Shown here piece after piece: positions 7,985 to 25,626 of a stretch of DNA of 64,000 bases. The notes beneath the pieces were generated by a model. That model was not told the DNA's origin and ran no database searches. It saw only the letters and a list, made by a program, of their open reading frames with translations. The position numbers and the translations under genes are program-made. The stretch is from Solimonas flava DSM 18980 (GTDB taxonomy: Bacteria; Pseudomonadota; Gammaproteobacteria; Nevskiales; Nevskiaceae), in assembly GCF_000426685.1 (NCBI RefSeq), contig NZ_AUFV01000008.1, forward strand, positions 256,530 to 320,529, read 5' to 3'. How positions within the stretch are numbered: the stretch's first letter is position 1; the number at the start of each line of letters is the position of its first letter.

Positions 7985-9304
7985 TCACCTGTTCGCTCTA
8001 TAACGAAAAATTGATGCAACAGCTATAGGCACCCAATAAAGAATAGTAAACTTAATTCCCAGGGCAAAAGCATCCCCAATTCCGCTTCTATAGTTGACCA
8101 AGATGGTCGCGACAAGGCAGGCAAGCCATACATCATAAAAATTTAGGGCAGCCAAATTACTATATGCCTGCTGCAATCGAGGGTTCACCCACCCGAATAG
8201 CAAGCCCGCAGAAATTCCTAATATCACGCTTCCCAGATGGCCGAAGGAAAGGAACGAATCTGCAAGCATTGACAAGGCCCCATAGGGCGCGATCTGATCG
8301 AGCTCCAAATCGCTCTTTGCAAACAAGCCAATTGATGCGCGAAGGTAGTCCCCCAGCTTAAAAAACGGGATGGCCGAATCCAAAAAAGCTCTGACCAGAT
8401 GTCCACCATATGTCAGAGTTAATGCTTTATTCTCAAGCTCAACAATCGTTGCGGACGAAATGGTGGAGACGGCCATCAGCTCTTGAAAAACTGGCCTATA
8501 AAACTGAGTTGCTCCCGCCAAGGCGTAAGCTTCCTTGTAGTAGTCGGCACGAGCGGCAAACATCGCTCCAGTGGCGACTATGAATGCCATTGTTAACGGC
8601 ACAAGGAATAAAAGTTTCCTCTTTATGGTTGGCGTATATAAAAAATACAAAATAAGAAAAAGAACGAACGGAACGAACGCCTGCCGCCGACCAGCAACAA
8701 AAAGCTGCTCGACTATTGGAAGAGCCAATATGCTTATACATCCGAAAAGCCACCACCGCTTTTGACGAAACGACAAAAGCAAGAGTGGCGCCGCTACAAC
8801 AAGTAGCGAACGGCCATGAAAAATAACGCTATGGATTCCGGTAACTGTTGAGCCATAACCAGCAGACCCAAGCTCATAATCTGCTCGACGCGCAAGTCCC
8901 GCACCCGTCAAAACAGACAGCACCCCAAAGAGCAGCAACAGCGATAAAAGAGGCCAATAGCTCTGAACAGAACGGAATTTCGTCGGCGGACGTATCCGCG
9001 CAGAAAAAATGGGGACAGCGACATAGTAGCTCGCTGTCGCCAATAATAAGAATATCGCCACATGCAATAAATGCAATTGCAGTGTAACTTCCGTAATCCC
9101 GCTACCATAAGTATATAAGCGCATGGAAGGGATTAGAAAAACCAATGATTCAGTCCATGCGCGGATCGCGAGGCCGGACAGCTCATAAACCATCGCCAGC
9201 GCGATAAAAAGGCAGAACGCATAGCTGCCGTGCCTGTAAGAAAAAACAACCACCAAAAAAGACAGAATGGTCAGCCCCACAACATACATCTGAATCTCTA
9301 TCAC
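7985..9304 (-). CDS. Oligosaccharide repeat-unit polymerase (Wzy-like membrane protein)
   Basis: 439 aa, strongly hydrophobic with about ten membrane segments, the first at residues 6-24. A large periplasmic-type loop lies in the C-terminal half (roughly residues 255-340), as in O-antigen/exopolysaccharide polymerases. Family members share topology more than sequence, so the call relies on hydropathy, length and its place among a flippase, glycosyltransferases and an acyltransferase. It would join undecaprenyl-linked repeat units in the periplasm. Its start overlaps the acyltransferase stop by 4 bp (ATGA). The DNA is AT-richer than the flanks, as is usual for O-antigen-specific genes. Confidence 0.75.
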   Translation of the reverse strand: MIEIQMYVVGLTILSFLVVVFSYRHGSYAFCLFIALAMVYELSGLAIRAWTESLVFLIPSMRLYTYGSGITEVTLQLHLLHVAIFLLLATASYYVAVPIFSARIRPPTKFRSVQSYWPLLSLLLLFGVLSVLTGAGLARRADYELGSAGYGSTVTGIHSVIFHGRSLLVVAAPLLLLSFRQKRWWLFGCISILALPIVEQLFVAGRRQAFVPFVLFLILYFLYTPTIKRKLLFLVPLTMAFIVATGAMFAARADYYKEAYALAGATQFYRPVFQELMAVSTISSATIVELENKALTLTYGGHLVRAFLDSAIPFFKLGDYLRASIGLFAKSDLELDQIAPYGALSMLADSFLSFGHLGSVILGISAGLLFGWVNPRLQQAYSNLAALNFYDVWLACLVATILVNYRSGIGDAFALGIKFTILYWVPIAVASIFRYRANR

Positions 9305-10521
9305 GATCGCCCTCCCTCAGAGTTAGGCTTCGCACGATTTCTTGCATTGGCGCTCATGAAGCTGGATATCAGCCTATACACTAGTCTGTGGTGGCGCTCA
9401 AATAGTAAATAGAATATGAATGCAGATGCATTTATGATGACTATCAATGAGAAATAAGTAAGCGCATCGGAAAAGCTTCGCCCAATCCCAGCAAGGCGAG
9501 CCGGATCAAGACTAAGCCAGAGAAAAATCAGCGGAACGTGGATGACATATAGAGAGAAACTGTAATCAGCGGCCATCGCAATGATTTTTCTTGCCTGTCT
9601 ACCCCCCCCCTTAGCGATATCATCAATGCCACTCACGCTCATCAATATAACAGTCACAATGATAGATACGCTGAATTCTATGCGGAATTGGACAGATGAT
9701 CGATATATAAAGGCAGCCGCGATTAGCAGCAGCACGGAAGCAATCGCCTTAACAGAATGCGCCGACAGAAAATGCCCCCACTTTTCCGCATATGCGCCGC
9801 AAGCCCACGCAAGGAATCCGATGACATAGATCCAGTTTCTGGATCCAGAATCTGGAATTCTCGAAAAAAACATCTGCGCAATAATAAACAGCAGTATGCC
9901 GGCCGAAAAAAGCCTCGCGCTTATGCGATGACTCGCTCGCATAAAAATCAAAAGACAAGGAAAAGCAACGTAATAGATAAATTCGTTGCTAAGACTCCAT
10001 AGAGACAAATTATTGGCAAATTGCAGACAATGCAAGGTTTGCATAAATGCCATATTGCAAGCAAACGCGCCGAGAGATGAGCTTTCCGAGGCCGACCACC
10101 ACGCTGGATACCAAGGCGAATTTTTCTCTATAACAGCCGCCCCGTCTCCAAAATTAAAGGAGACTGCGGCCACTATAGCCGACAATATCAACCCAGGCAC
10201 AAGAACCGAATAAAGACGCGCTACACGCTTTGCGGCGTAATCCGAGAAATTGAACTTTGAAGCCTGAATTGACCTAATAACTGCCCCCCCCACAAGAAAG
10301 CCGCTCACAACAAAAAAAACAACGACTGCATGGTGGTTAAAAAAAGAAAACCTGAGGACCCATTGCCAAAATAAATTCGGCACGTCGTCCAGTTGAGGCT
10401 TCAGAACAAGCGCCCTTACATGTCCCAAGAGCACGAGTTGAGCACTGACTGCCCTGAGCAAGTCCAAAGTAAAGGCACGATCTTGGACGACTACTATCTT
10501 TTGCCCCTCTGAAACTCCCAC
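9301..10521 (-). CDS. Acyltransferase 3 family protein (sugar O-acyltransferase)
   Basis: About 406 aa from a GTG start at 10521, which follows a purine-rich GAGGGAGGGGGGGAA ribosome site. An ATG at 10578 would add 19 unlikely residues and overlap the next gene. The N-terminal segment FTLDLLRAVSAQLVLLGHVR carries the conserved R-x10-H signature of OafA/NodX-type acyltransferases, and about ten membrane segments follow. It probably acetylates a sugar of the repeat unit using acetyl-CoA across the membrane. The coding strand contains a G9 run (9602-9610) and a G8 run (10284-10291), plus G7 in the ribosome site, all unusual here and suggestive of slipped-strand on/off switching. Confidence 0.88.
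   Translation of the reverse strand: MGVSEGQKIVVVQDRAFTLDLLRAVSAQLVLLGHVRALVLKPQLDDVPNLFWQWVLRFSFFNHHAVVVFFVVSGFLVGGAVIRSIQASKFNFSDYAAKRVARLYSVLVPGLILSAIVAAVSFNFGDGAAVIEKNSPWYPAWWSASESSSLGAFACNMAFMQTLHCLQFANNLSLWSLSNEFIYYVAFPCLLIFMRASHRISARLFSAGILLFIIAQMFFSRIPDSGSRNWIYVIGFLAWACGAYAEKWGHFLSAHSVKAIASVLLLIAAAFIYRSSVQFRIEFSVSIIVTVILMSVSGIDDIAKGGGRQARKIIAMAADYSFSLYVIHVPLIFLWLSLDPARLAGIGRSFSDALTYFSLIVIINASAFIFYLLFERHHRLVYRLISSFMSANARNRAKPNSEGGRS
9602..9610 (-). repeat. G9 homopolymer tract inside the acyltransferase gene
   Basis: Nine consecutive G on the coding strand (C on plus) encode part of Lys-Gly-Gly-Gly-Arg near the C-terminal third. Gain or loss of one base would frameshift the protein. 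It is the longest single-base run I noticed in the window. Confidence 0.85.
10284..10291 (-). repeat. G8 homopolymer tract inside the acyltransferase gene
   Basis: Eight consecutive G on the coding strand encode Val-Gly-Gly-Ala near residue 77 of the acyltransferase. A further G7 run lies at 10524-10530 in the presumed ribosome-binding site of the same gene. Confidence 0.85.
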
Positions 10522-10534
10522 TTCCCCCCCTCCC

Positions 10535-11287
10535 TCAACAGAGGCTACCGCCCAACATGCGGAACGCATCGGCAGCATGCTGCCTAATAGCCACTAAACT
10601 ACTCACGCGCTTCGACTGGGTTCTCCCGCGAGTTGACTCGATAGTACTTTGTCCTTCCAGAAACCGAGGATGAGCGGCCACCTTAGGAAATGTCATCCAT
10701 AGCCCGCCATGACCATTGAGCTTGCGGAGCGTCTGCCATTCATCAGCAGCGCATGAAATCGGAGTCGTGGCTTGCAACAGGCGCCGCGCGGTCGCCAGCG
10801 TTATCATGTAACAGCATGTACGCTTTATTCTATCGTCACACATGAACGCCTTTCTTACTTGCACCCGCCCCAGGTTAAATTTTCGCCTCCTGCAAAAGAA
10901 TTGACGGTATTCACCTTGTGCATCTTCTTGGCCGCCGAGAATTACAACGCCACCGAAAGTAGCATCAATCTCTAATGCGCTTCGGCAGAGATCGCCAAAC
11001 CCAGGCAATAGCGTTACGTCGTCTTCGAGCACAATCGCCACGGGGACATTATCGCGAGTCATTAGCTCATATATTGCACGATGGCTAAGCGCACAGCCGA
11101 TCTCGGGCCCGGAAAGTGGCAGATTCTTTGCGATCAGGCTTGAGTCAATCGCATCCTTGCCGACCCCGCGCAAGTCGACCGCGTCGACGAACTCATATGC
11201 AAGCGGCAACTGGTCCAACTGCTGCGATATCAGCCTACGTCGCTCGCAAGCATCTTTGAGTGATACGATATAAATTTTCGCCTGCAT
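10535..11287 (-). CDS. Glycosyltransferase family 25 (LPS biosynthesis type)
   Basis: 250 aa, the usual size of GT25 proteins. Signatures are IYIVSLKDACERRRLISQQL at residues 5-24, EIGCALSHRAIY near 83 and the metal-binding VAIVLEDDV near 104. Related enzymes add galactose or similar sugars to LPS or lipooligosaccharide. It lies between GT2 and acyltransferase genes in the AT-richer part of the cluster. The proposed GTG start of the downstream acyltransferase lies 13 bp past its stop. Sugar specificity cannot be inferred. Confidence 0.88.
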   Translation of the reverse strand: MQAKIYIVSLKDACERRRLISQQLDQLPLAYEFVDAVDLRGVGKDAIDSSLIAKNLPLSGPEIGCALSHRAIYELMTRDNVPVAIVLEDDVTLLPGFGDLCRSALEIDATFGGVVILGGQEDAQGEYRQFFCRRRKFNLGRVQVRKAFMCDDRIKRTCCYMITLATARRLLQATTPISCAADEWQTLRKLNGHGGLWMTFPKVAAHPRFLEGQSTIESTRGRTQSKRVSSLVAIRQHAADAFRMLGGSLC

Positions 11288-11322
11288 GGGCGCTAACTCG
11301 CTTTCTGTAATTTAAGTCTTAA

Positions 11323-12228
11323 TCACGCTGCTGGCCGATGCCCAACGAGCCGATCAATGAGCCGCTTCACCCTAAGCGAAACTGGAATCCAATATTGGAT
11401 AAAATCCTTATAGTCACGCCCGATGTACCTAATCAAAATGCTCAGCATGAAACTCGTACGATAACCAAAGCAGGGCATTTGCAGAATTATTTTTGGCACC
11501 ATTTCGGCATGCACCTTACGGCTTTCATTGGCCCAACTGATGTCGCCCCAGACGTTTGTCAAGCTAACCTCTCGCACGATTGCAACGCCGCCTGGTCTGC
11601 TAGCGCAGTACAGCGAATACCGAAGTGGAGCTGCCAACTCCCGCCCCATCGCAATAGCCTTGGCGAGATCGCTCTGCCTGTAGATGCAGGCGCTGATGAA
11701 CATGAACTGACTGAGCCTTTGCCTAGAGACTTCATCAACCCCTTGTTGCCCCTTCGGGTAGAAGTTTGCTCCATGGGGATCAAGCAGATGTTCGATCTTC
11801 GTGGCGCCTGTCTTGCCATCCACTACTCGATGATTAAGGTACAGCAGCGCCGGCCTCTTTTGCTCCAAGAGGGAAAGGACTCGCTTCACTGTTCCTTGAT
11901 CTAAAATGTCGTCGTCTGCCAAGAACCAGATATAAGCTCCGCGGGCAAGTTCAAACAATTTATTTATATTTCGCACGGAGCCTATGTTGGTTTCATTTCT
12001 ATTGATTCTGAAACCCAGTCCCGAGAACTCCGCACAAACACGCCCGGTATCGTCACCAGAGCAATTGTCTGAAACAAGTATTTCAACGTCGTCAAGTGTC
12101 CGTGTTTGCTCTAGCACAGCCATTAGCTGCCGCTTTAGTTTTGCAGCCCGATTGTACGTGGGAATGCAAATTGAGAGCAGAGGCTCGTCGCTCCGCTTAG
12201 GCACGGAATCATCGCGATGCTGAGGCAT
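11323..12228 (-). CDS. Glycosyltransferase family 2
   Basis: 301 aa. GT-A signatures are LLSICIPTYNRAAKLKRQL (residues 17-35), VEILVSDNCSGDDTG and the DxD-like WFLADDDIL near residue 100. It would transfer a sugar from a nucleotide donor to the growing lipid-linked repeat unit on the cytoplasmic side. Its start lies inside the 3' end of the flippase gene (20-bp overlap), indicating coupling. The region is AT-richer than the CDP-sugar genes upstream. Confidence 0.9.
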   Translation of the reverse strand: MPQHRDDSVPKRSDEPLLSICIPTYNRAAKLKRQLMAVLEQTRTLDDVEILVSDNCSGDDTGRVCAEFSGLGFRINRNETNIGSVRNINKLFELARGAYIWFLADDDILDQGTVKRVLSLLEQKRPALLYLNHRVVDGKTGATKIEHLLDPHGANFYPKGQQGVDEVSRQRLSQFMFISACIYRQSDLAKAIAMGRELAAPLRYSLYCASRPGGVAIVREVSLTNVWGDISWANESRKVHAEMVPKIILQMPCFGYRTSFMLSILIRYIGRDYKDFIQYWIPVSLRVKRLIDRLVGHRPAA

Positions 12229-13540
12229 ATATTTTTACGGCCCACGGAAGGAGTATCAATTGAATGCATACTTGAGAAATTATGGAAATTTCCAATATAT
12301 GTGTTGTTGCCGCAGATATAAATACGCCTGCCGGGAGCAAGAGGTTGCTGGCAAGGCTGAAGTATAGAAAGGGCTCGTTGTATCGTAGACGGGCAAACAA
12401 AGCGAGCGCAGCGAACAGGATATTGAAAAAATAGAACCCCCCAAGCAGCAGAATCATTGGCAAAGGCAATAACCTGTCCGTTAGGCTAGGGAAGAAATTT
12501 CCTCCCACAAATGCCGCCAATGCAATCAATGCAACTGAGAAAATTACAAGAGAAAATGCGAGACCGACTGAGAATTCTCGCCTTGCCTCCCTCACCTCTC
12601 CGTGCCCCATTCGCGAGGCCAGCACTGCCGTTCTGGAATTCAGGGCGGAGCTTGATAATTGTTGCAATGAATTCAGCATCGATAGAGAAGCACCATAGTG
12701 CCCCGCAATCGCTGGCCCAAACAGCTTGAATACGATGATGGGCGCACTATTCCAGTATAGAAATCCAGTAATCCACGTTAGGCTGATGCGCCACTGGTCT
12801 GACCAAAACTCTCTAAACACCCTCCAATTCAGGCGGGACCGATCGTACAGCAGGCTATGTACCTTGCGCAGTGGAATAACGATCAAGATCATCAGCACCA
12901 AAAAACTTACTAGTGCGGATGCGGCTAGAGAGTAGAGTCCGAAATTAAACGCCAAGAGCACCCACGTTATTAATGTTCCAAGCAAAGCGGAAATGAATCT
13001 CGCTCGATATGTGCGAGACCGGCTCACTACCGCCTCGCTTAGAAGAATAAATGGTTGTATGGCGAGCGGAAGGCAATTGCATACCGCCACCAGGAGCCAT
13101 GGCAGACGCCAGGAGACGTCCGAAGCCGTGCGCGTCTCGAATATTAGTAAGCCGGCCGGTATGGTGACTAGCGATACAATCGTTGCTATTCCGAGAAACC
13201 AATGGCCAGCAAACGCAATGTAGGGCCCAAGGGTTCCCTCCACTGATTTTTCAATAATGATATTTCCGGACACGATTTTAATATGTCTTGCATTAGTGCT
13301 TACCGTTCGCAGGAAGACAAATCCAACGCCGGCCTCCAGCAGAACTTGCAGCGCAAGAACATTTGCAAAAACGTAGTAATAACCTTGCTCATCCGCTCCC
13401 AAGAATTGGGTGACAAGTATCAGCGTTATTGGCGCCGCCATAATCCGCCACGCAGTCTGCAGCAGATTAAACGCAGCCGCGCCATCAAGGATTAGCTTGC
13501 GTCGGTTGAGTAACCATTGAAATCGCGCCCGCAGGTTCAT
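12209..13540 (-). CDS. wzx: Polysaccharide flippase (Wzx-like, MOP superfamily)
   Basis: 443 aa, about twelve hydrophobic segments with short polar loops and basic residues near the N-terminus, the pattern of Wzx/RfbX-type exporters. It would flip undecaprenyl-pyrophosphate-linked repeat units to the periplasm for polymerisation by the nearby Wzy-like protein. Its start overlaps the end of the upstream SDR gene by 4 bp, and its end overlaps the GT2 start. Identification rests on topology, length and context, since sequence conservation in the family is low. Confidence 0.82.
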   Translation of the reverse strand: MNLRARFQWLLNRRKLILDGAAAFNLLQTAWRIMAAPITLILVTQFLGADEQGYYYVFANVLALQVLLEAGVGFVFLRTVSTNARHIKIVSGNIIIEKSVEGTLGPYIAFAGHWFLGIATIVSLVTIPAGLLIFETRTASDVSWRLPWLLVAVCNCLPLAIQPFILLSEAVVSRSRTYRARFISALLGTLITWVLLAFNFGLYSLAASALVSFLVLMILIVIPLRKVHSLLYDRSRLNWRVFREFWSDQWRISLTWITGFLYWNSAPIIVFKLFGPAIAGHYGASLSMLNSLQQLSSSALNSRTAVLASRMGHGEVREARREFSVGLAFSLVIFSVALIALAAFVGGNFFPSLTDRLLPLPMILLLGGFYFFNILFAALALFARLRYNEPFLYFSLASNLLLPAGVFISAATTHILEISIISQVCIQLILLPWAVKIYASASR

Positions 13541-14535
13541 TGGCGGACGGACGAAGAGCTCGGCGTGATTTCTTCCTTGGCTTTCGCGAGCAATGTACCG
13601 ATGGCACCTTCGAGAGTGTGCAATTCGTCAAGACTCATAGCATGGCGAAAACCGCGGGTGTCCGGATAGTAACGAGCGCGCCCGCCATAGTCCGCCAGCT
13701 TGCCTTCGACGATCACCGGCTTTTTACGCTCGCTAAGCTTGGATATGGCCTCGGCCAGCTCACGAATCGAGACCTCACGCGCCGCCCCCAGGTTGTACGT
13801 TGCGCATCGGGGGCCTTTCTCGTTGAGCGCCAGCAGCCAACGCGCCAGATCGTCAACGTGAAGGTACGAGCGTGTGGCGGTGCCGTCGCCCTTGATGCGG
13901 ATGCTATCGCCGTGCGGCGAGACAGCTTCGCGAATGAAGTTGCCAAGCGCGTACTGACCGTCCAGCGGACTTTCGGGGCCAATCACAGAGAAGATGCGGG
14001 CAATCCGCACCGCCATGCTGCTACGCTCCGCGAGCAGCGTGCAGAGATGCTCCGAGAATCGTTTTGCCTGGCCGTAAGCGGTAGCTGGCGAGTCCAACGC
14101 AGGCGCCGTGCTCCAGTTCTCCGGAATGCCGCTTTCCGGATAAGGGCCGGGGCCGTAAACGGCGCCGGAACTCAGGTACAGGTATCGTTCGCAGCCGCTT
14201 TGCGCAGCATAGTCAAGTGTGCGCTTGGTCCCTTCCGCAATGCTCCAGGCGTATTCAAGCCGGTTAGTGACCAGCAGGTCGTTGACATCCGTGGCGCCGT
14301 GGATGAGATCGGTAAAGCTTTCGCGCGGCCACTGGCTGCTGGTCATGTCGCCTTGCAGCAGTACAACGACTTCCGCGTTGGCTATATCCGGCGCAGTGCT
14401 CTGCAGTCGCTCCGGGCTGCGGGTAAGCAGTGTGAGCCGCTCGATGTTCAGTGGCCCGCGCTGCTGGATCAGCAGTCGCACCAAGGCGCGGCCGATCAAT
14501 CCGGTGCCGCCGGTGATGAAGAACTTTCGAGCCAT
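13537..14535 (-). CDS. NAD(P)-dependent epimerase/dehydratase/reductase (extended SDR)
   Basis: 332 aa. The nucleotide-binding motif GGTGLIGRALVRLL is at residues 8-21, the catalytic YLYLSSGAVYGPGPYP near 145 and YGQAK (YxxxK) near 178. It is an extended SDR acting on a nucleotide-linked sugar. Placed directly after the two transketolase subunits and the RfbF/G/H enzymes, it is a good candidate for the final ketoreductase or epimerase of the CDP-3,6-dideoxy (possibly branched) sugar, in the position held by abequose, tyvelose or ascarylose enzymes in known clusters. That role is inferred from context. Confidence 0.8.
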   Translation of the reverse strand: MARKFFITGGTGLIGRALVRLLIQQRGPLNIERLTLLTRSPERLQSTAPDIANAEVVVLLQGDMTSSQWPRESFTDLIHGATDVNDLLVTNRLEYAWSIAEGTKRTLDYAAQSGCERYLYLSSGAVYGPGPYPESGIPENWSTAPALDSPATAYGQAKRFSEHLCTLLAERSSMAVRIARIFSVIGPESPLDGQYALGNFIREAVSPHGDSIRIKGDGTATRSYLHVDDLARWLLALNEKGPRCATYNLGAAREVSIRELAEAISKLSERKKPVIVEGKLADYGGRARYYPDTRGFRHAMSLDELHTLEGAIGTLLAKAKEEITPSSSSVRQ

Positions 14536-14568
14536 GGCGCGTCTGCCGGTTTATTGTCGTTACGCCGG

Positions 14569-15480
14569 CTAGCTCAGGTTCATCAGGCCACGCAGGCGCT
14601 GCTGCACATCTGCGTCAGAGAGTTGATGCTCCGAAAGCGCGTACTGGTAAGAGCCGCAGTGTTCGGCAAAGTGGTCCTGCAGCGAAAGCACCTGAACACG
14701 TGGTACAGCCACGCCCGCGTCAATGAAAGCATCCGTCAGGCTGGAGGCGAGTCCGCCGTAGCGGCTGTGCTCCTCTAATACGATGATCCGCTGGAATGAG
14801 CTAAGTAGCCCTATCGCGTTCTCTGCGAACGGCTTGAGGCGAAAGACGGAGAGATGCGGCAGGCCGTGTTCGACGCCGGCAGCGTGGCCTACCGCGGTCA
14901 TCGACCCCATGGAAACCAGGCAGGTATCGGCAACGCTCTCAGGCTGATGCGTGAAGTGCGCCAGCGTATCAGGCAACGGTCGCTGGTTGACCACGGGCCT
15001 GTCGCTTTTCCCTACGCGGATGTAAGCGGGGCCGGCGTAGGCCATGGCTTCTTCGAAACTCGCCTGCAGCTCGTAATCGTCGCAGGGGGCATAGATACGG
15101 ATATACGGTAACGGGCGCAGTGCTGCCACGTCTTCGCCGCACTGGTGTGAGGAGCCGAGCGTGGAATACACCAGCCCTGCACCGTCGCCCACAAATATGA
15201 CCGGCAGCTTTGTGAAGCAGACGTCCATCTTGATCTGCTCCAGCACGCGCAAGGGAACGAACGCGGCTAAGCCGTAAACGAGCGGACGGTGCCCGGTTTT
15301 GGCAAGACCGGCAGCAATGCCAACCAGCGCTTGCTCCATGATGCCCACGTTCACGAACTGACCGGGCCTGCGCTGGCGTATGGCATCAAACAGCGCATAC
15401 CCATGATCGCCGGAGAGCGCCAGGAACTTGGGGTCACGCTCCGCATTGCCCGCAATCAGCTCGGAAAGCATGCCTCTCAT
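14569..15480 (-). CDS. Transketolase-like protein, C-terminal subunit (Pyr + C domains)
   Basis: 303 aa, about half of a full transketolase. It carries the pyrimidine-binding domain with the ThDP-activating Glu in NVGIMEQALVGIAAGLA (about residues 43-59) and the C-terminal domain with RIIVLEEHSRYGG near 220. It pairs with the N-terminal subunit encoded immediately upstream (4-bp ATGA overlap) to form one ThDP enzyme that moves two-carbon ketol units. Housekeeping transketolase is normally a single chain of about 660 aa, so this split pair inside a CDP-dideoxysugar cluster points to a dedicated sugar-branching role. That role is an inference. Confidence 0.88.
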   Translation of the reverse strand: MRGMLSELIAGNAERDPKFLALSGDHGYALFDAIRQRRPGQFVNVGIMEQALVGIAAGLAKTGHRPLVYGLAAFVPLRVLEQIKMDVCFTKLPVIFVGDGAGLVYSTLGSSHQCGEDVAALRPLPYIRIYAPCDDYELQASFEEAMAYAGPAYIRVGKSDRPVVNQRPLPDTLAHFTHQPESVADTCLVSMGSMTAVGHAAGVEHGLPHLSVFRLKPFAENAIGLLSSFQRIIVLEEHSRYGGLASSLTDAFIDAGVAVPRVQVLSLQDHFAEHCGSYQYALSEHQLSDADVQQRLRGLMNLS

Positions 15481-16289
15481 GAGCGTGACTCCGGGGTTTC
15501 CAACTCGGCCATGGCACTTTCCATGAGCTGCGGATTAAGTCGCAGGTAGTGCCACTCAATCTTGTTTTCCATGAATGAAACGCCGTAGCCCTTCACGGTG
15601 CGCGCAATGACGGCGTGCGGCTTTCCAGGCGTGGGGCGCAGCGCCGTTTGCAGTAGCTCCATGTCGTGGCCGCTGCAATCGATAGCACTGAAGCCAAAAC
15701 TCTCGAACTTCTGCGCAAAGGGCTCCAGATTGATGATCTCGCCTGTGGTCCCCATGGCCTGCAAACCGTTGGCATCCACAATCACCACGAGGTTGTCCAA
15801 CTGGTGGTGGGAGGCAAAGAGCATGGCCTCCCACATCGGCCCCTCGTTCATTTCGCCGTCGCCCACGATGCAGTACACGACGCGATCGCTGCCCTGACGC
15901 TTCAGGCCGTATGCAATCCCCACGGCGATCGGCAGGCCATGTCCCAAGGTGCCTGAGCAAATTTCAAGGCCCGGTACGCTCGCCTCGCAGAGGCCATGCA
16001 ACTTGGAGCCGTCGGAGAAGTAGCGGTCCAGATCTTCCTGCTCCAGCCAGCCGAGTTCGCGGTAGGCGGCATAAACCGCCATCACGCCGTGGCCCTTGGA
16101 GAGAATCAAGTAATCCCTGTCCGGCATTTCCGGACCGGTGATGTCATAGCGCATAACGCTGCCGTAGAGAACCGACACAATCTCTATCAGCGAGAAAGCG
16201 CAGCCAATGTGCACGGAATTGCCACTGTGCGCCATGTGCAACACATGGCGGCGCAGCGTCTTGGGATCAAAGTCCGGCTTACTGCTCAT
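15477..16289 (-). CDS. Transketolase-like protein, N-terminal subunit (ThDP-binding PP domain)
   Basis: 270 aa. Conserved features are HSGNSVHIGCAFSLIEI near residue 21, LSKGHGVMAVYAA near 63, LGHGLPIAVGIAYGLK near 115 and the thiamine-diphosphate Mg motif GDGEMNEGPMWEA followed by VIVDANGLQ (about 143-174). With the overlapping downstream C-terminal subunit it should form an active transketolase-type enzyme. It begins just 2 bp from the end of rfbH, so its translation is probably coupled to that of the CDP-sugar dehydratase. The likely acceptor is therefore a CDP-4-keto-sugar, though this is not shown by sequence. Confidence 0.9.
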   Translation of the reverse strand: MSSKPDFDPKTLRRHVLHMAHSGNSVHIGCAFSLIEIVSVLYGSVMRYDITGPEMPDRDYLILSKGHGVMAVYAAYRELGWLEQEDLDRYFSDGSKLHGLCEASVPGLEICSGTLGHGLPIAVGIAYGLKRQGSDRVVYCIVGDGEMNEGPMWEAMLFASHHQLDNLVVIVDANGLQAMGTTGEIINLEPFAQKFESFGFSAIDCSGHDMELLQTALRPTPGKPHAVIARTVKGYGVSFMENKIEWHYLRLNPQLMESAMAELETPESRS

Positions 16290-16291
16290 CG

Positions 16292-17608
16292 CTAGAACCC
16301 GATGCCGAGGAACTGCTCGATCTGCGTGGCAATGTAATCCAGGCGCGCTTCATCCAGCGCAGGGAAAACACCGACCCAGAAGGTATGGTTCATGGTGATG
16401 TCCGTGTTGGTCAGATCACCAACCACACGGTAGTTGCGGCCTTTCATGTAAGGCTGGCGGATCAGGTTGCCCGCGAACAGAAGGCGTGTGCCCACTTTGT
16501 TCTGGTCGAGATACTGCGTCAGGTCCAGTCGGCTTACGCCCGATTCCGGGCGCACGGTGATGGGGAAGCCGAACCAGGAAGGATCGGAGTTCGGAGTGGC
16601 TTCCGGCAGCATCAGCTGCTCTTCGCAGCTCTTCAGCCGTTCCTTCAGGTAGCTGAAGTTGCGCCGGCGGATGCGGATGAAGTCCTCCACCCGATTCATT
16701 TGCGCCAGCGCGCAGGCCGCCTGCATGTCGCTGATCTTGAGGTTATAGCCAAGATGCGAGTAGGTGTACTTGTGATCGTAGCCTTCCGGCAGATCCCCCA
16801 GCTTCCAGCAAAAGCGCTTGTTGCAGGTATTGTCTTTGCCCGGCGCACAGTAGCAGTCACGCCCCCAATCCCGGAACGACTCCGCAATCAGCTTGAGGTC
16901 CGCGTTATTGGTGAATACGGCGCCGCCCTCGCCCATGGTGATGTGGTGTGCAGGGTAAAAACTCACCGTTCCGATATCGCCAAAGGTACCGACGTTCTGC
17001 CCGTTGTACGTAGCGCCCAGTGCGTCGCAGCAGTCTTCTACCAGCCACAAGTTGTACTTCTTGCACAGCGCGGTGACCACTTCCAGATTGAAAGGATTGC
17101 CCAGCGTATGCGCCAGCATGATCGCCTTGGTTTTAGGCGTGATGGCCGCCTCGATCCGGCTGGCGTCGATGTTGTGCGTGTGCAGATCCACGTCGACGAA
17201 GACCGGCACGGCGCCGAACTGGATGATCGGATTCACCGTGGTTGGAAAACCGGCAGCCACACCGATCACTTCATCGCCTTGCTTGATCGCACGGTCACCC
17301 AGCTTAGGCGACGTCAGCGTGGAAAAAGCAACGAGGTTTGCCGAGGAACCCGAGTTGACGGTGATCAGATACTTGACGCCGATGAACTTGGCTAGTCGTT
17401 CTTCAAACGCCGCGTTGAAGCGCCCCGTAGTCAGCCAGCCATCCAGGCTGGCCTCAACCATGTTCTGTAACTCCTTGGCGCCGATAACTTTGCCGGAAGG
17501 CGGCAGCACGGTCTGCCCCGGCACAAACGGCTTTGGCGCATGCGCCAGCTCCGCATATTCAGCCACCAGCACTGCAATTTGCGAGCGGAGTTCTTGTTGA
17601 CGGTCCAC
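16292..17608 (-). CDS. rfbH: CDP-4-keto-6-deoxy-D-glucose 3-dehydrase RfbH (E1)
   Basis: 438 aa, the expected size. DegT/DnrJ aminotransferase fold, but the usual PLP-binding Lys is replaced by His in [17 protein letters not shown] (about residue 215), diagnostic of the PMP-dependent C3 dehydrase (DdhC/AscC). The iron-sulphur Cys cluster [15 protein letters not shown] follows, then [18 protein letters not shown]. It removes the C3 hydroxyl of CDP-4-keto-6-deoxyglucose together with an E3 reductase, here encoded at 19601-20641. A 128-bp gap separates it from rfbG upstream. Confidence 0.95.
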
Positions 17609-17736
17609 GATCTTCAGTCCTGTTAAGTCTCAATAGGCCTGCTAAGGCCTTCTCCGCATGAACAGCGGACAAAAAAGTAATGACGCGACGTATTCCCGGC
17701 GGGATCTAGGCCGATCCATCCAGGTCACGCAAAAAA

Positions 17737-18816
17737 TCAGCGCGCCTCATACGCCGAAATCTGCTGCAAGGAAATCTGCCGCATGTCAGCTCCCGCTACA
17801 TGCGCGCGATACCACTCGACCACGTTCGCTAGCGCATCACTGAGGCTCCAGCGCGGCTCCCAGCCAAGCTTTCCTCGCACCTTGGAGATATCCAGCTTGA
17901 GGTAGTTGGCCTCATGCGGATGCACCTGGTCATCGAGGCGCCAACGTGCGCCGTCACCCCAAAGCTGGACCAATCGCTCCACCAACCACTCCACAGGCTT
18001 GGCGTCTTGATCGTTGGGGCCGAAGTTCCAGCCCTGCGCGTAGCGTGAACCATCCGCAAAGAGTTTCTGAGCCAAAACCAGATAGCCGGAGAGCGGCTCC
18101 AGCACGTGCTGCCAAGGACGAATCGCATGCGGCGAACGGATGCGGAGTTCCTCTCCTGCCACGATCGCCCGAATAAAGTCGGGGACCAACCGATCACCCG
18201 CCCAATCACCGCCGCCAATGACATTGCCGGCGCGGGCGCTGGCTAGCGCCAGACGGTGCTTGTCGAACTTTTCAGCATTGAAGAAAGAGGATCGATATGC
18301 AGACACCACGAGCTCTGTGCAACCTTTACTGTTGCTGTAAGGGTCATACCCGCCCATGGGCTCATTCTCGCGATAGCCCCAATCCCATTCCTTGTTCTCG
18401 TAGCACTTGTCGCTACTGATGATAACGGCCGCGCGCACGCTCGGACTTGCGCGGAGCGCTTCCAGTACGTGCACGGTGCCCATCACATTGGTCGCATAGG
18501 TACCGACCGGATCCTGATAGGACAGGCGCACCAACGGCTGAGCCGCCATGTGAAAGACGATATCCGGCTCGGCTTTGCGCATGACTGCTACGAGGGTTTC
18601 CCGCTCGCGGATGTCACCGAACGTCGTGTCTACTAGCCGCTCTACTCCTGCGGCTTCAAACAGGCTCGGATTTGTCGGCGGCGGCAAAGAATAGCCAACT
18701 ACCGAAGCGCCGAGCTTGTGCAGCCAAAGCGACAGCCAGCTACCTTTGAAACCGGTGTGCCCCGTTACAAAAACGCGCTTTCCGCGCCAGAAGTCTGCGT
18801 CTACCAAAGCTTCCAT
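17737..18816 (-). CDS. rfbG: CDP-glucose 4,6-dehydratase RfbG
   Basis: 359 aa. An extended SDR with [18 protein letters not shown] at residues 15-32, [13 protein letters not shown] near 128 and the catalytic [10 protein letters not shown] (YxxxK) near 157. [20 protein letters not shown] and the Trp/Asn-rich middle match CDP-glucose 4,6-dehydratases. It converts CDP-glucose to CDP-4-keto-6-deoxyglucose, the substrate of RfbH. Its start overlaps the end of rfbF by 16 bp, so the two are translationally coupled. Confidence 0.95.
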
Positions 18817-19574
18817 GGCGCTTTTCCGGACTGCCAGAGTTCTTCCAAATGCTGCTTGTCACGCAAGGTATCCATAGGCTGCCAAAAGCCCTCATGCTTG
18901 TAAGCATGCAGTTGTCCTTGGGCGGCCAGGGCTTCCAGCGGCTTGCGCTCCCAGATCGTGCTGTCGTCTTCAATAAGGTCAATCACTTTGGGCGAGAGCA
19001 CGAAGAAGCCACCATTGATCCAGCCCCCGTCGCCACTTGGCTTCTCCTGGAAGGAATGGACCGCATCGCCTTCCATGCCCAGAGCGCCAAAACGACCGGG
19101 CGGCTGCGTGGCCGTCATCGTCGCCAGCTTGCCGTGCGCTTTGTGAAAGCCCAGCGTCTTGCCAATATCGATGTTTCCCACGCCATCTCCGTACGTGAGG
19201 CAAAAGGCCGGTTCATCGGCCACGTACTGACGCACGCGCTTCAGTCGCCCGCCGGTCATCGTGGAATCGCCTGTGTCGACCAAAGTCACACGCCACGGCT
19301 CTGCATTGTTGTTATGCACGTGCATGCGGTTGTGAGACATGTCGAACGTGACATCGGACATGTGAAGGTAGTAGTTTGCAAAATACTCCTTCACCACATA
19401 GCCCTTGTAGCCCAGACAAATCACGAAATCATGTATGCCATAAGCCGAATAGATCTTCATGATGTGCCATAGGATCGGCTTGCCGCCGACCTCGACCATC
19501 GGTTTCGGGCGAACGCTGGTTTCCTCGCTCAAGCGAGTGCCCAACCCACCAGCCAAGATTACCGCTTTCATCAA
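18801..19574 (-). CDS. rfbF: Glucose-1-phosphate cytidylyltransferase RfbF
   Basis: 257 aa, the typical length. The N-terminus [20 protein letters not shown] contains the nucleotidyltransferase loop GGxGTR, followed by [33 protein letters not shown] near residue 122 is the metal/CTP-binding region characteristic of the cytidylyl branch. It makes CDP-glucose from glucose-1-P and CTP, the entry step to CDP-3,6-dideoxyhexoses. It precedes rfbG with a short overlap and follows the E3 reductase gene by 26 bp. Confidence 0.95.
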
Positions 19575-19600
19575 TTCCCCTGGGTTAGCATTACGTCCAA

Positions 19601-20641
19601 TTACGAGGACGTGAACGGGTCGCTTCTAAAACGATCAGCCGGCAGGGTCAGATTCAAACAAACCTTACGAGCCTGCTCGATCATCGCTGGATTTCCACAG
19701 GCCAGTACCAAGCCATCGGAAAGATCGTCATAGTCCTGCGTCAAAAGATCCTGCACGTGCCGCGGCGAAGCCAGCACTTCGCGAGAATGCACCGCCCGAT
19801 ATCGAAGCCCGATGCGCGAGGACAGCACTTTTACTCTGGAGCGAAGGTATTCATCCCGCTCATGGCGATTTCCCCAGTACAGAGCAATGTCGCCCAATGC
19901 AGCTCGTTTTTCTGGCGACAGCGCTTCGAGAATCGCCAGAATCGGAGCGATTCCGGTGCCAGTCGCCAAAAAGATCGTTCGGGAAGCTCGGTCGTTGTCA
20001 CGCAAAAAGAAGTGCCCATACGGGCCGTCCAGATGCAACAGGTCGCCTGGCTTCGCTGTTCCGAATAGATAGTCGCTGAAAGCGCCGTGGTTGACGCGGC
20101 GGACATGTACGCGCAGCAGCTTGTCCTCGGCTGGAGCCGCGGCAAGCGAATAGCTCCGGGTAACGCGTTCCTTGTTAGTGAGGCGCACGAACTGACCGGG
20201 AAGGAATCTCGGATTCATAGCTGGCGGCATGCGCAGCGTCAGTTCAACGACATCATCACTTAGAAAACTCAGAGCATGAATCTTTGCTGGACTACGAAAC
20301 TGCCGAACATTGGCAAGCTCAGGAAAATGCGGGAGCGAAACGACGAGGTCCGAGCATGCAGCAGCATTACATAGATAAATACCCTGATCTGAATGCAAAG
20401 ACTGAGAGGGATTAACGGCATTTACCTCCCCAGCCGCTAAAGCAGCCACGCATTGTCCGCAGTCTCCGCGACGACATGAGTAATTAACAGGCAGGCCAGC
20501 GCTCACTGCCTCGTCGAGTAGGCTACGGCTGGAATCCACTTCGATGCGGCGCAGTTCCGAGCCGATCTGAAAATCCACATGGGGCATAGGAAACTCGCGC
20601 CTCATTTTCTTTGCCATCTGCCGCGCTGCGCAAATCGGCAC
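19601..20641 (-). CDS. CDP-6-deoxy-glucoseen reductase (E3, AscD/DdhD type)
   Basis: 346 aa from a GTG with a GGAG site 5 bp upstream. An internal ATG at 20587 would give 328 aa, closer to known E3 proteins, so the start is uncertain. An N-terminal plant-type ferredoxin domain has [12 protein letters not shown] and a later Cys in YLCNAA. It is followed by an FAD-binding RSYSLAAAP, the NAD-binding [14 protein letters not shown] and the C-terminal [13 protein letters not shown]. It passes electrons from NADH through FAD and 2Fe-2S to the RfbH intermediate. It starts 12 bp after the wzc stop, and its presence makes the 3-deoxygenation step complete. Confidence 0.92.
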
Positions 20642-20653: not shown

Positions 20654-22939
20654 TTAGGTGCTTTTGCCTCCCCCCTTATAGCCATAGCTGGAATAGCCAT
20701 ATGCGTAGCCATAGCTGCCGTAGCCATAGCTGCCGACACGTGCGCCAACCTGGTTGAAGATAGCACCGCGCACCTTGACTCCAGCCTGCCGCAAGCGCCG
20801 CGCCGTCTCTTCAATGGCACGCATCGGATGCTCGGCTGACTTGAGTACCAACATCGTGGTGCCGGCAAGGCGCCCAATGATGGCGGCGTCTGTTACCGGC
20901 AGCACTGGCGGCGTATCAACAAGGACATAGTCGTACCGAGCAGATAGGTCGCGCAGCAATTCCGCAAAGCGGTCATGCATAAGAATTTCGGCAGGATTCG
21001 GTGGCCGAGTACCGCCGGGAATGAAATCGAGATTCTTGACTGCGGTTTGTCGAATAATCGCCGCCTTTTCGCTCGTGCCCGCGATGTACTCACTAATGCC
21101 CGGCTTCTGCTCGGTATTGATGTACTTATACAAATGACCGCGTCGCAGATCAGCGTCGAGCACGACAGTGCGCTTGCCCGACAATGCCAGCACCGCGCCA
21201 AGGTTGATCGAGACAAAGCTCTTTCCGAGGCCGGCAACCGGCCCAGTAAGCATGATGATGTTATTTGGCGCTTCGAGCATGGCGAAGTGCAGCGACGTAC
21301 GCAGGCTACGCAGCGCCTCAATCGCAAGCTCGGTGCCATCTAACGCGGCGAGAATTTTGCTGTCCGCACTTGCACTTGCACTTGCGTGCCTCATTCTTCG
21401 CATCAGCTTCTGCTGCACCGGCGAATACGGAATGGAGGCGTACGTCGGCAAACCCAGCACACGCTCCAAATCCTCCGGCCGGTCGACTCCGCGCAGCAGA
21501 GCGCGCATCACAAAGACTGTCATCACCCCGACGAACAATCCAACCATTATGCCGAGCGCTGCCACGAGCCTTTTTTTGGGCTTGGCGGGCAGTAGTGGGA
21601 TTAGGCCACGGTCGACAATTCGCACATTGCCCACGGTACCGGCCTTTGTTACCTGCAATTCCTGTGCAGAATTAAGCAAAGAGGTGTAGAGCTGCGTATT
21701 TACATCGAGATCGCGCATCAAACTCAGAACTTCCTGCTGAGTCTCCGGCAGCGTCTCGACCTTCTTCTTCAGCGCCTCCTGCTCACGCTCGACACCGACA
21801 ATTTGCTGATTAAACGACGTCACCACAGGATGCTGCGGCGTGTATCTCAACAAAGCTGCATCGCGCTTCTGCATCAAGTCCAGCCGCTGCGTCTCGAGCT
21901 CAACAGATCGCTGCAGGACGATCTGCGTTTCCTGTTGGACGTCTACAGAGCCCTTCTTGAGCTTGTAAGTGTTGAGTTTGGCCTGCGCCGAATCAACCTT
22001 GTCGCGCAAATCCGGCAACTGCTTCTTCAGAAACTCCAGAGACTGAGCTGCCTGCGCCGAGCGTCGCTCGACATTCTGACTTAGATATGCGTCTTCGACG
22101 GCATTGATGAAGCGCGCAGAAAAACGGCGATCATTATCCTCGAACTTCAAGCTCAGCATGCCAGAGTCTCGCGGCTGCTCAGTTACCGTCAGACGATTAT
22201 TAAGATCGGCTAGCAGCGTCTGCAGCGCGACACGCGTAACTGTGAAGCGGGTGCCAGGTCGTGCAGTGAGCTCCTGTACAAAGATTGCTGCCGGTCCGTC
22301 GGGAGTGTTGACCGCCGAACGAGCCCCAACTTTTCCGGTCAGCACAGGTACATCATCGGCGTCACGCAGAACGTAATCGCCATTCACCCCGGCAATCAAA
22401 GTAAACCCAAGGTCGTACCAGCTTTCGGGGAGTTCGAGCGCCGTAATACGTATACGCTCGCCCCCCCAAGCAAAACGCTTCAGACCTAGCGGCGCTTGGG
22501 CGGGCACTGGGAGATCTGCACGACGACGCGCAATTGCCTTGCCAATCACCGGAAAATAGTTAGGCTCGACACTGATGTAGAGTTGAAGATTGTCGATTAC
22601 CGAGCCCAGCACCATATTGCTTTTGATTATCGCAATCTCGGCCGGCGCATCCGTCGGTGGAGCTCCAATCAATGTGGAAAGCTGATCTACCGATGAGCTC
22701 AAGGCTCCCTTTTCCTTTTCAACCTGAACAAGGCCGCCAGCCTGATAGACCGGCTGAACCGTCAGCGCGTAAATAACACTAAAAAAAGTAATAGCCAGCG
22801 TGATTCCAACAACAACCCATTTGCCACTCCAGACTATATCGAGCAGTTCACGGAGGTTAATTTCTTCTTCATCCAACTGGCGCATAGGCGCCAATGCTTG
22901 CGGGCTGGAAGAGCCTGAGACTTGATTCTGATCGTTCAC
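20654..22939 (-). CDS. wzc: Polysaccharide co-polymerase with BY-type tyrosine kinase (Wzc-like)
   Basis: 761 aa. An N-terminal Wzz domain has a membrane segment around residues 38-60, a long coiled-coil periplasmic region (about 280-430), and a second membrane segment VAALGIMVGLFVGVMTVFV around 460. The cytoplasmic kinase domain has Walker A LTGPVAGLGKSFVSIN, A' VVLDADLRRG and Walker B YDYVLVDTPPVLP. The last ~25 residues hold eight Tyr in GSYGY-like repeats, the autophosphorylation cluster. It controls chain length and export with Wza. No low-molecular-weight tyrosine phosphatase (Wzb) is found in the window. A short hexamer repeat at 21366-21383 encodes part of the Ala-Ser linker between the second membrane segment and the kinase. 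Confidence 0.93.
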   Translation of the reverse strand: MNDQNQVSGSSSPQALAPMRQLDEEEINLRELLDIVWSGKWVVVGITLAITFFSVIYALTVQPVYQAGGLVQVEKEKGALSSSVDQLSTLIGAPPTDAPAEIAIIKSNMVLGSVIDNLQLYISVEPNYFPVIGKAIARRRADLPVPAQAPLGLKRFAWGGERIRITALELPESWYDLGFTLIAGVNGDYVLRDADDVPVLTGKVGARSAVNTPDGPAAIFVQELTARPGTRFTVTRVALQTLLADLNNRLTVTEQPRDSGMLSLKFEDNDRRFSARFINAVEDAYLSQNVERRSAQAAQSLEFLKKQLPDLRDKVDSAQAKLNTYKLKKGSVDVQQETQIVLQRSVELETQRLDLMQKRDAALLRYTPQHPVVTSFNQQIVGVEREQEALKKKVETLPETQQEVLSLMRDLDVNTQLYTSLLNSAQELQVTKAGTVGNVRIVDRGLIPLLPAKPKKRLVAALGIMVGLFVGVMTVFVMRALLRGVDRPEDLERVLGLPTYASIPYSPVQQKLMRRMRHASASASADSKILAALDGTELAIEALRSLRTSLHFAMLEAPNNIIMLTGPVAGLGKSFVSINLGAVLALSGKRTVVLDADLRRGHLYKYINTEQKPGISEYIAGTSEKAAIIRQTAVKNLDFIPGGTRPPNPAEILMHDRFAELLRDLSARYDYVLVDTPPVLPVTDAAIIGRLAGTTMLVLKSAEHPMRAIEETARRLRQAGVKVRGAIFNQVGARVGSYGYGSYGYAYGYSSYGYKGGGKST
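20679..20734 (-). repeat. 15-bp tandem repeat encoding the Tyr-rich tail of the BY-kinase
   Basis: Two perfect copies of GTAGCCATAGCTGCC (20705-20719 and 20720-20734) adjoin degenerate copies at 20679-20704. On the coding strand each unit encodes Gly-Ser-Tyr-Gly-Tyr. Unit gain or loss keeps frame and changes the number of phosphorylatable tyrosines. Confidence 0.8.
21366..21383 (-). repeat. Three tandem GCACTT hexamers in wzc
   Basis: Three perfect GCACTT units encode the Ala-Ser-Ala-Ser linker just before the kinase domain. The six-base period preserves frame, so length variants would only alter the linker. Confidence 0.7.
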
Positions 22940-22954
22940 GGTAAAAAGCAGTCG

Positions 22955-24271
22955 TTATGGCCCAGCAGAGCCTTTGTTGTTTCCCTGCAATCCCACGGCT
23001 GATGCCGTTGTAGGAATCGCTGCGGCGACTCCCCGTTTCAGCTGGAATAGCTCTCTCTCAAAACGGCCAAGTATTGCGTCTTGGTCCAAATGGGCTTCCG
23101 CATACAGGCGAGCGTTCGCCGCAAGGCTCTGATGCAAGACAGGATCATCTGCTAGCTTTTTTAGAGCCGCTATCAATGAATCTCTATCTTCCGGAGGAAT
23201 AACCAAGCCCGTTTGAGCATCATGAACCGCCTCAAACAACGCAGTTCCCGGCTCAGCCGTAGCGACAGCCGGCCTACCCGCGGCGAGGATGTTGGTCAGT
23301 TTCGACGGCATCACAAGATCCGCTGCGTGGGCACGCTGGATGACCAAGTGAACATCAGCAGAAGCAAGCATTTCATTAAGTCGATCTAACGGCTGCAACG
23401 GCAAGAAATGCACATTCATTAGCCCGCGTTGTCGCGCCTGATGCCCCAGCTCGTCGGCGTCGGAACCCGAACCGACCATGACAAATTGGAAGCGGCTGTC
23501 CTCAATCAGCTGCGCAGCCGCATCCAGCACCAGCGAAAGCCCCTGCTTGCGTCCCATTGCCCCGGCATACATGACGAGTGTCTGCTCGGGTCCGATTCCC
23601 AAGTCACGACGAAACGCGCTGTCGCGTGGACTGGGTTTAATGCCACGGACATCACTCCAGTTGGCCAGTTCAATGACGCAAGACTCAGCCGCCCCCTTGG
23701 AGACGGCACGACGACACATGGCGGGCGTAATTGAAGAGACCCGCGTAGCTGATCGAAGCAGGCCCTTCTCAATCCTCAGCAGCAGTTTGCCAAGCACCCC
23801 GCCGTTGAGCATCCCCAGTCCCAGTGCAGCATCCACCTGAAAGTCTTGGATGTGATAAATCCAAGGCACCTGACGCAGACCTTTGACGATCATAGGCCAA
23901 ATGCCAGAAAAGAGCGGGGGACAAACTGCGATGATCACGTCCGGCCGCTTGCGGCCGAAAAGCACTCCCAGCCATGGAAGGGCGCTCGCCGCAAAGATGC
24001 TGAAGTCGACGAGAACACGACGCAACGACGTAACATGGCCATCTTTGGGGATGTAGTGAGGCACGCGGAAAATGCTGACATCGCGCCAAATTTCACGTCG
24101 ATAGCCCTGTCGATAGCCGGATGCAAGCTTCCATTCTGGGTAGTACGGAAATCCAGTGATTACCTGCACTTCGTGCCCACGCGCGGCAAACCATGCGGCC
24201 ATCTCACCAGTGTATTTTCCGATCCCGGTCTTCTCAGGAAAAAAATTCCCGGCATGAATCAAGATGCGCAT
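22955..24271 (-). CDS. WcaI-like glycosyltransferase family 4
   Basis: 438 aa. The N-terminus MRILIHAGNFFPEKTGIGKY with the GIGKYTGEMAAWFAARGHEV segment, the FPYYPEWKL motif near residue 41 and the hydrophobic stretch near 90-125 all match the WcaI/WbuB group of colanic-acid-type transferases. The donor domain has VMYAGAMGRKQGLSLVLDA near 235 and PSKLTNILAAGRPAVATAEPG near 325. It probably adds the second or a later sugar to the undecaprenyl-linked repeat unit. It lies 15 bp downstream of nothing else than the Wza-Wzc pair, between those two genes in the leftward operon. Confidence 0.88.
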   Translation of the reverse strand: MRILIHAGNFFPEKTGIGKYTGEMAAWFAARGHEVQVITGFPYYPEWKLASGYRQGYRREIWRDVSIFRVPHYIPKDGHVTSLRRVLVDFSIFAASALPWLGVLFGRKRPDVIIAVCPPLFSGIWPMIVKGLRQVPWIYHIQDFQVDAALGLGMLNGGVLGKLLLRIEKGLLRSATRVSSITPAMCRRAVSKGAAESCVIELANWSDVRGIKPSPRDSAFRRDLGIGPEQTLVMYAGAMGRKQGLSLVLDAAAQLIEDSRFQFVMVGSGSDADELGHQARQRGLMNVHFLPLQPLDRLNEMLASADVHLVIQRAHAADLVMPSKLTNILAAGRPAVATAEPGTALFEAVHDAQTGLVIPPEDRDSLIAALKKLADDPVLHQSLAANARLYAEAHLDQDAILGRFERELFQLKRGVAAAIPTTASAVGLQGNNKGSAGP

Positions 24272-24336
24272 CTTTCGGAGTGTCCGCTTCCCGCTGGCTT
24301 ATAGCGCCGAGCTAATGCCGACGACGGTACCATTAA

Positions 24337-25512: not shown

Positions 25513-25626
25513 AGGATCTCCGTAAGATAGATTTTCTACAACTCCGCACACGCCATGAAACAGAGGCCAACAGCTTTGTGCAGAGATCCCCAACCCACAC
25601 TCAATTCGCAGCGCCGGGGAGTTTCT

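Follow-up and report, generated by a model that had tools for sequence, protein, structure and literature searches.

Gene content of the locus

The 64,000-nucleotide stretch of Solimonas flava DSM 18980 analysed here (assembly GCF_000426685.1, contig NZ_AUFV01000008.1, positions 256,530 to 320,529; hereafter the window) carries, within a polysaccharide locus, a run of seven complete genes on the minus strand. They occupy 13537-20641 and encode, starting from the higher coordinate, an E3-like reductase, RfbF, RfbG, RfbH, the two halves of a split transketolase (TK-N and TK-C, together the pair) and an extended short-chain dehydrogenase/reductase (SDR) (Table 1). The pair is considered here as a candidate branching enzyme for a cytidine diphosphate (CDP)-bound 3,6-dideoxy sugar, occupying the position held in related loci by YerE-like enzymes dependent on thiamine diphosphate (ThDP). 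Spacing is tight along the whole run, the widest gap being 128 bases between RfbH and RfbG, and the open reading frames (ORFs) of TK-N and TK-C overlap by 4 bases.

The preliminary description, made from the letters of the sequence, had placed all these genes in one run and had noted a His in place of the pyridoxal phosphate (PLP) Lys of RfbH; NCBIfam, Pfam and alignment to the solved entries 3bcx and 3bb8 confirmed each of them. RfbH of the window aligns over its full length with the CDP-6-deoxy-4-hexulose-3-dehydrase 3bcx, and in the motif YPA(H/K)HITMGEGG it shows His at the PLP Lys position, while entry 3bb8 shows Lys. RfbF, RfbG, RfbH and E3, the gene set of the CDP-3,6-dideoxyhexose pathway, are accordingly all present. 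The E3-like gene product is proposed to be the electron donor of RfbH, and homologues of it (34-38% identity) lie upstream of RfbF in several RfbH loci. Regarding the pair, its adjoining N- and C-terminal halves are best matched among solved proteins by 6yak and 6yaj, respectively, each a chain of the split transketolase from Carboxydothermus.

Table 1. Features of the window and sister-clade genes at other loci (L followed by a number denotes an individual locus)
Feature	Coordinates	Strand	Evidence
E3-like reductase	19601..20641	-	2Fe-2S, FAD and NAD domains (Pfam)
RfbF, glucose-1-phosphate cytidylyltransferase	18801..19574	-	NCBIfam equivalog TIGR02623, 479 bits, cut-off 300
RfbG, CDP-glucose 4,6-dehydratase	17737..18816	-	NCBIfam equivalog TIGR02622, 518 bits, cut-off 278
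RfbH (E1), CDP-4-keto-6-deoxyglucose 3-dehydrase	16292..17608	-	NCBIfam equivalog NF011936, 758 bits, cut-off 423
TK-N, N-terminal half of split transketolase	15477..16289	-	Transketolase_N (PF00456), 9e-35; best solved match 6yak
TK-C, pyrimidine-binding half and C-terminal part	14569..15480	-	Transket_pyr (PF02779), 2.6e-21; best solved match 6yaj
Extended SDR	13537..14535	-	PF01370, 2e-32; YxxxK present
Wzx-like flippase, same polysaccharide locus (context)	12209..13540	-	Pfam; NF041503 below cut-off
Two glycosyltransferases, acyltransferase, membrane protein without Pfam match (context)	7985..12228	-	Pfam
Wzc-like kinase, GT4, Wza-like exporter, initiating sugar transferase (context)	20654..26451	-	Pfam
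Sister-clade split transketolases in RfbH loci	L069 8197-10113; L073 3391-5104; L224; L225		

A split-transketolase clade linked to RfbH

When 398 genomes of the same phylum were searched with TK-C, one match beyond the window stood out, with 224 bits against 176 for the next. This match (L009/L040) adjoins RfbH in the gene order of the window, E3-RfbF-RfbG-RfbH-TKN-TKC-SDR being identical in L040 and followed there by a flippase-like ORF of 477 amino acids. A single match, of 35% identity, was obtained with TK-N among 60 closer relatives at E 1e-30. Contigs of public genomes were also scanned with an alignment of the two TK-C proteins as the query, the best 80 of 567 confirmed stretches comprising 47 TK-C relatives at 40–59% identity and, as controls, 33 further split transketolases of 29–33% identity. 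Since the scan covers the best 80 of 567 stretches, the clade is probably larger than the 47 relatives counted. By record title these include members of Burkholderiales, Bdellovibrionota, Planctomycetes, Cyanobacteria, alphaproteobacteria, one Chlorobiaceae and one metagenome-assembled genome of Verrucomicrobia, and the clade shows the TK-C signatures GDHGYALFD and GDGAG.

RfbH, counted at 50% identity or above, was found in 38 of the 47 clade loci, mostly adjacent to the pair and never more than ~4 kb from it; none of the 33 control loci contains it. Seven of the nine clade loci lacking it belong to genomes that encode RfbH elsewhere (45/47 genomes in total), while only 6 of the 33 control genomes have RfbH anywhere. 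The co-occurrence of rfbH with both transketolase halves, which the preliminary description had put forward as a check, is thus borne out. The 48 clade members in the tree form a monophyletic group with support 0.994. Clade loci number 49, and residue comparisons refer to 48 of them, L107 having no usable TK-N. Some redundancy exists, L209 being the same locus as L106 and L212 the same as L095, with L097 and L101 nearly identical; the 55 rows of the clade tree correspond to 53 distinct loci. Among 72,556 plasmid records, 726 match TK-N, all below 60% identity, and the 30 listed fall at 39-43%, under the 48-61% TK-N identity of the full-length clade members.

Two other accounts of the arrangement were rejected: a chance neighbourhood, because the same gene run recurs in records from several phyla, and a plain transketolase of central metabolism, because the genome of the window has a separate one.

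Exchange with YerE-like genes

YerE-like genes were sought by comparing ORFs of at least 200 amino acids with four references drawn from the loci themselves, and the sequence on either side of each of the 39 RfbH places found among the 398 genomes was inspected as far as contig ends allowed. Two of these places hold the clade pair (the window and L040), two a split transketolase of a sister clade (L069 and L073), 18 a YerE-like gene and 17 neither, with both types at none. Likewise, no YerE-like ORF was detected in any of the 49 clade loci, some of which lie on short contigs. In the genus of Paraburkholderia nodosa, where 18 of 144 genomes contain RfbH, the 18 loci divide into seven with this clade (two of them being L095 and L106 again), two with the sister clade, nine with a YerE-like gene and none with both, and an SDR match of the window type (SDR-A) of at least 109 bits is present in all 18.

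An RfbH tree that took in 93 of 104 loci, with L209/L106 and L212/L095 each present twice, showed four YerE-bearing sequences of this genus nested in a clade bearing the transketolase (support 0.96-0.98). Changes of label along this tree amounted to 24, against a mean of 41 (least 33) with shuffled labels. In RfbF/G/H/SDR loci of otherwise similar make-up, the split pair and the YerE-like enzymes substitute for one another: beside RfbF/G/H and an SDR, the pair takes the slot of the YerE-like genes, in the phylum sample as well as at the 18 loci of the one genus. Regarding domain content, the pair of the window shows neither TPP_enzyme_N nor TPP_enzyme_M, only a weak TPP_enzyme_C match in TK-N (29.5 bits, cut-off 21.9), and the two PF02776 matches of its genome lie on other contigs. 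We consider it highly probable that the pair branches the CDP-4-keto-3,6-dideoxy sugar at C4. The preliminary description had already suggested that the pair branches the CDP-4-keto sugar, a proposal that is now well supported by this replacement and very likely correct.

In contrast, it would be very improbable that the pair is an ordinary pentose-phosphate transketolase placed here by accident, with the SDR producing a plain 3,6-dideoxyhexose from the 4-keto sugar. Abequose and paratose are indeed made by extended SDRs, and the 17 of 39 RfbH places devoid of a ThDP gene are consistent with such products, but the genome of the window encodes its own single-chain transketolase elsewhere (L001), 45 of the 47 genomes of the clade have RfbH, and YerE-like genes and the pair take each other's place. 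Moreover, a 4-keto reductase would presumably use up the very compound on which YerE enzymes that stand with this SDR family depend.

The least probable account considered has the pair producing a donor, or a branched sugar of its own, and leaving the CDP-3,6-dideoxy sugar untouched. The sister-clade members L127 and L126, which stand with RfbF and RfbG-type genes in genomes with no RfbH, speak for it, while both the linkage to RfbH and the exchange with YerE-like genes speak against it. L127 itself (4435-10581) combines RfbF, RfbG, GtrA, GT2, a window-type SDR and the split transketolase, so that branching may also take place on a CDP-4-keto sugar that is not 3-deoxygenated.

The accompanying SDRs

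The pair occurs with SDRs of two families. Type A, that of the window, is located after TK-C or between RfbH and TK-N, and type B, that of L040, after TK-C, the SDRs of the window and L040 sharing just 25% identity. Both families also occur with YerE-like genes: type B directly follows them in L043, L044, L052 and L063, and type A is found in the YerE-like loci L041, L055, L058, L060, L075 and L077. In the trees, the SDR-B clade (support 1.0, 19 members) contains 14 transketolase-linked, four YerE-linked and one other sequence, and one SDR-A subclade (support 0.89, 24 members) contains 20 transketolase-linked and four YerE-linked sequences. Considering the 35 of the 39 RfbH places that have no split transketolase, an SDR of type A or B with at least 100 bits is present in 10/18 with a YerE-like gene versus 1/17 without one (Fisher p 0.003, a value that ignores relatedness), while 36 of the 49 clade loci reach the same score, 23 with type A and 13 with type B.

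The SDR of the window therefore belongs to a family common to YerE-like loci, as would be expected of a YerF-type reductase. In Pseudomonas WCS417, homologues of ddhA-D, yerE and yerF are reported to form one locus-tag run (PMC4509608), and this run resembles L043. Because the same SDR families accompany the pair and the YerE-like genes, the most likely substrate of the SDR is the ketone of the newly added branch, irrespective of which ThDP enzyme added it. The role that the preliminary description gave to the SDR next to the pair, that of reducing the branch, is hence considered very likely.

The donor-site residue

Position 100 of TK-N (E. coli numbering) is Leu in 48/48 clade pairs, while in the 63 other split-transketolase pairs, which include the sister clade, it is His in 56, Ile in 6 and Leu in 1. 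Alignments with 6yak and with human transketolase place their His opposite the Leu of the window, the donor-binding His100 of transketolases thus being absent from the clade. The remaining residues that we take to be catalytic, namely the GDG motif for ThDP, the His of HxG, the His of SKGH, the catalytic Glu and the His of the C half, are kept in alignments of 9 and 15 clade members.

His100 is counted among the donor-binding residues and is consistently Phe in DXS, and in the Geobacillus transketolase its replacement in H100F, and more so in H100L, raises the use of pyruvate, while the Carboxydothermus split transketolase, with His present, does not accept it (PMC7661550). An E. coli transketolase variant containing H100L and five other mutations accepts pyruvate with low activity (PMC10787763), and the Geobacillus H102L/H474S double variant shows low kinetic values on it (PMC7696235). 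Since the change of His100 to Leu opens transketolase to pyruvate, the clade is predicted to use a donor of the pyruvate type, which would give an acetyl branch and finally a yersiniose-type product. If the pair does branch at C4, we regard a pyruvate-type two-carbon donor as likely.

This prediction departs from the preliminary description, whose branching of the CDP-4-keto sugar and role for the SDR remain very likely but whose ketol donor from a ketose phosphate is probably wrong. We judge it unlikely, though less so than the other alternatives, that the CDP-4-keto sugar receives a ketol (glycoloyl) unit donated by hydroxypyruvate or a ketose phosphate, a transfer that, after reduction by the SDR, would yield a 4-C-(1,2-dihydroxyethyl) branch. 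Such donors are native to transketolases, split-gene transketolases are the proposed catalysts of hydroxyacetyl attachment to keto sugars in miharamycin/amipurimycin formation (PMC12247030), and a His-keeping sister clade is likewise found in RfbH loci; nonetheless, the invariant Leu of the window clade is the very change that opens transketolase to pyruvate. The sister clade, read directly in L069, L073, L224 and L225, keeps the donor His within the motifs LMNHIS/LMSHIS, is united with the window clade with support 1.0, and may itself carry out the ketol version.

Addition of a longer 2-oxo acid unit, as by ErwE, giving an erwiniose- or caryophyllose-like branch, appears improbable. A Leu could make the donor pocket roomier and less polar, and two RfbH loci with aldolase genes have an SDR of the same type B family; on the contrary, no aldolase family was found among 20 window proteins scanned, nor in a set of 20 genes taken from ten clade loci, two of these genes matching no family at all. 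The two loci are L044, where an HpcH/HpaI aldolase lies near SDR-B and a YerE-like gene (10320-13849), and L047, where a DmpG-type aldolase and an acetaldehyde dehydrogenase lie near SDR-B with no YerE-like gene (10587-14560). Their aldolase genes likely make longer 2-oxo-acid donors.

As for DXS, the NCBIfam dxs model gives 99.9 bits for TK-C and 24.9 bits for TK-N against a cut-off of 465.95. Leu itself as a trait common to DXS and the clade was dropped, since a second alignment, with 15 of the 48 clade members, and PMC7661550 both give Phe; a DXS-like Asp in TK-C (D99) depended on the alignment and was not used.

In a separate group of six split transketolases (L134, L139, L140, L141, L151 and L154; four of them from Methylomonas) the donor-His position is Ile (GGIPD), and genes with weak DegT-type, and mostly also nucleotidyltransferase-type, similarity lie nearby. 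These pairs may have lost the donor His independently, in the setting of a sugar locus.

Proposed pathway

In the proposed pathway, RfbF, RfbG, RfbH and E3 would produce CDP-4-keto-3,6-dideoxy-D-glucose, and TK-N and TK-C would assemble into one ThDP enzyme. The donor of this enzyme would be a 2-oxo acid, most likely pyruvate, which on release of CO2 would supply a two-carbon unit to the C4 ketone of the CDP-sugar, leaving a tertiary alcohol with a 4-C-acetyl branch. Reduction of the acetyl to 1-hydroxyethyl by the SDR would then give a yersiniose-type branched sugar, which would be incorporated into the surface polysaccharide that the adjacent genes produce, YerE being replaced by an enzyme from another ThDP family. 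Because the pair has neither His100 nor the N and M domains of YerE, it is probably a transketolase-family protein that works like YerE. Taken as a whole, from pyruvate as acetyl donor to the yersiniose-type sugar, the scheme is somewhat favoured by the comparisons above. To the wider proposition that a natural pyruvate-using transketolase with the engineers' His-to-Leu change builds the tertiary-alcohol branch in the place of YerE, that the His-keeping sister clade makes the ketol version, and that this residue predicts the branch of the polysaccharide, we would give an even chance.

Several observations weigh against the scheme. Neither ThDP enzyme stands at 17/39 RfbH places, so that RfbH alone is no proof of branching, and in the genomes of the clade loci L117 and L082 RfbH was searched for and not found. 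Within the Paraburkholderia nodosa genus, the YerE-like calls of L216 and L222 are partial matches at the edge of the locus (76 and 52 bits). The YerE-like matches of L219-L223 have ~30% identity and lie ~5 kb from RfbH; all of these could be other ThDP enzymes. One locus, L126, does hold a sister-clade transketolase together with a YerE-like gene. Regarding the reductase, 13/49 clade loci have no SDR match of 100 bits; five of them lie on contigs under 10 kb (L087, L090, L092, L098, L109) and four contain weaker SDR matches (L080, L081, L091, L111), while L078, L117, L119 and L124 show none despite 15-21 kb of sequence. Finally, the His-to-Leu argument leans on engineered single-chain enzymes whose activity on pyruvate is low, and the corresponding DXS column is sensitive to alignment, being Phe in the 30 highest-scoring DXS matches of the phylum and in that of the window genome in one alignment and Leu in another.

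Relation to known systems

A close functional parallel is the YerE/YerF route to yersiniose A of Yersinia pseudotuberculosis (DdhA-D, YerE, YerF), which also combines genes for a CDP-3,6-dideoxy precursor, a ThDP branching enzyme and an SDR, the pair standing where YerE-like genes stand. YerE, however, is a single-chain flavoenzyme of the decarboxylase superfamily (PMC12247030, PMC4753412), while the window encodes two transketolase-family subunits. The split-gene transketolases of the miharamycin/amipurimycin type share with the pair the two-gene layout and a proposed two-carbon addition to a keto sugar that leaves a tertiary alcohol, but they belong to the secondary metabolism of Streptomyces (13 sequences in PMC12247030), whereas the window clade would act on a nucleotide sugar for surface polysaccharide in Gram-negative phyla and has the donor His replaced. 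The Carboxydothermus hydrogenoformans enzyme, the best solved match in its two chains, keeps His100, rejects pyruvate and is described with aldehyde acceptors (PMC7661550). DXS resembles the pair in being transketolase-like, using pyruvate and lacking the donor His, and differs in its single chain, its sugar-phosphate aldehyde acceptor and the Phe at the donor-His position. AviB1/AviB2-type enzymes of acetyl-branched antibiotic sugars are two-subunit ThDP enzymes that bring acetyl from pyruvate to a keto sugar, but they are alpha-keto-acid-dehydrogenase-like, of the pyruvate-dehydrogenase E1-like superfamily and not of the transketolase family (PMC4753412, PMC12247030).

A 2025 review places YerE-like enzymes in lipopolysaccharide, credits them with most cell-surface branched sugars and assigns alpha-keto-acid-dehydrogenase-like enzymes to antibiotics; as far as its excerpt goes, ketone-accepting enzymes of transketolase type are given from Streptomyces only, none of them tested in vitro (PMC12247030). 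Among the titles and abstract openings listed in literature searches, none links split transketolases to RfbH. The pathway would be the known one for CDP-branched dideoxysugars with a transketolase as the substitute branching enzyme. If true, the clade would represent ketone-accepting transketolases that occur naturally and widely, strains with branched dideoxysugars but no yerE would be accounted for, and a one-residue rule would predict the donor; pyruvate-using, ketone-accepting transketolases are moreover wanted in biocatalysis. In this regard, yersiniose A has been reported for B. brasiliensis (PMC4753412, PMC4153317), and Burkholderia kururiensis M130 was formerly 'B. brasilensis' (PMC3622988).

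Neighbouring genes and minor observations

Among the genes flanking the run in the window (Table 1), the membrane protein can be considered Wzy-like by its place only. In several clade loci the module is followed by GtrA and GT2 genes (L105 11866-16058, L095 10875-14658, L108 3267-4630), with a DUF7024 protein in two of them, which suggests that the sugar is transferred in lipid-linked form and added in the periplasm. In L126, the stretch 3188-14861 brings together RfbF, an RfbG-like gene, a UDP-galactopyranose-mutase-like gene, the sister-clade split transketolase, an SDR and the YerE-like gene. Two RfbH matches elsewhere, G149:C155 13992-15314 and G165:C174 19515-20852, contain one internal stop codon each.

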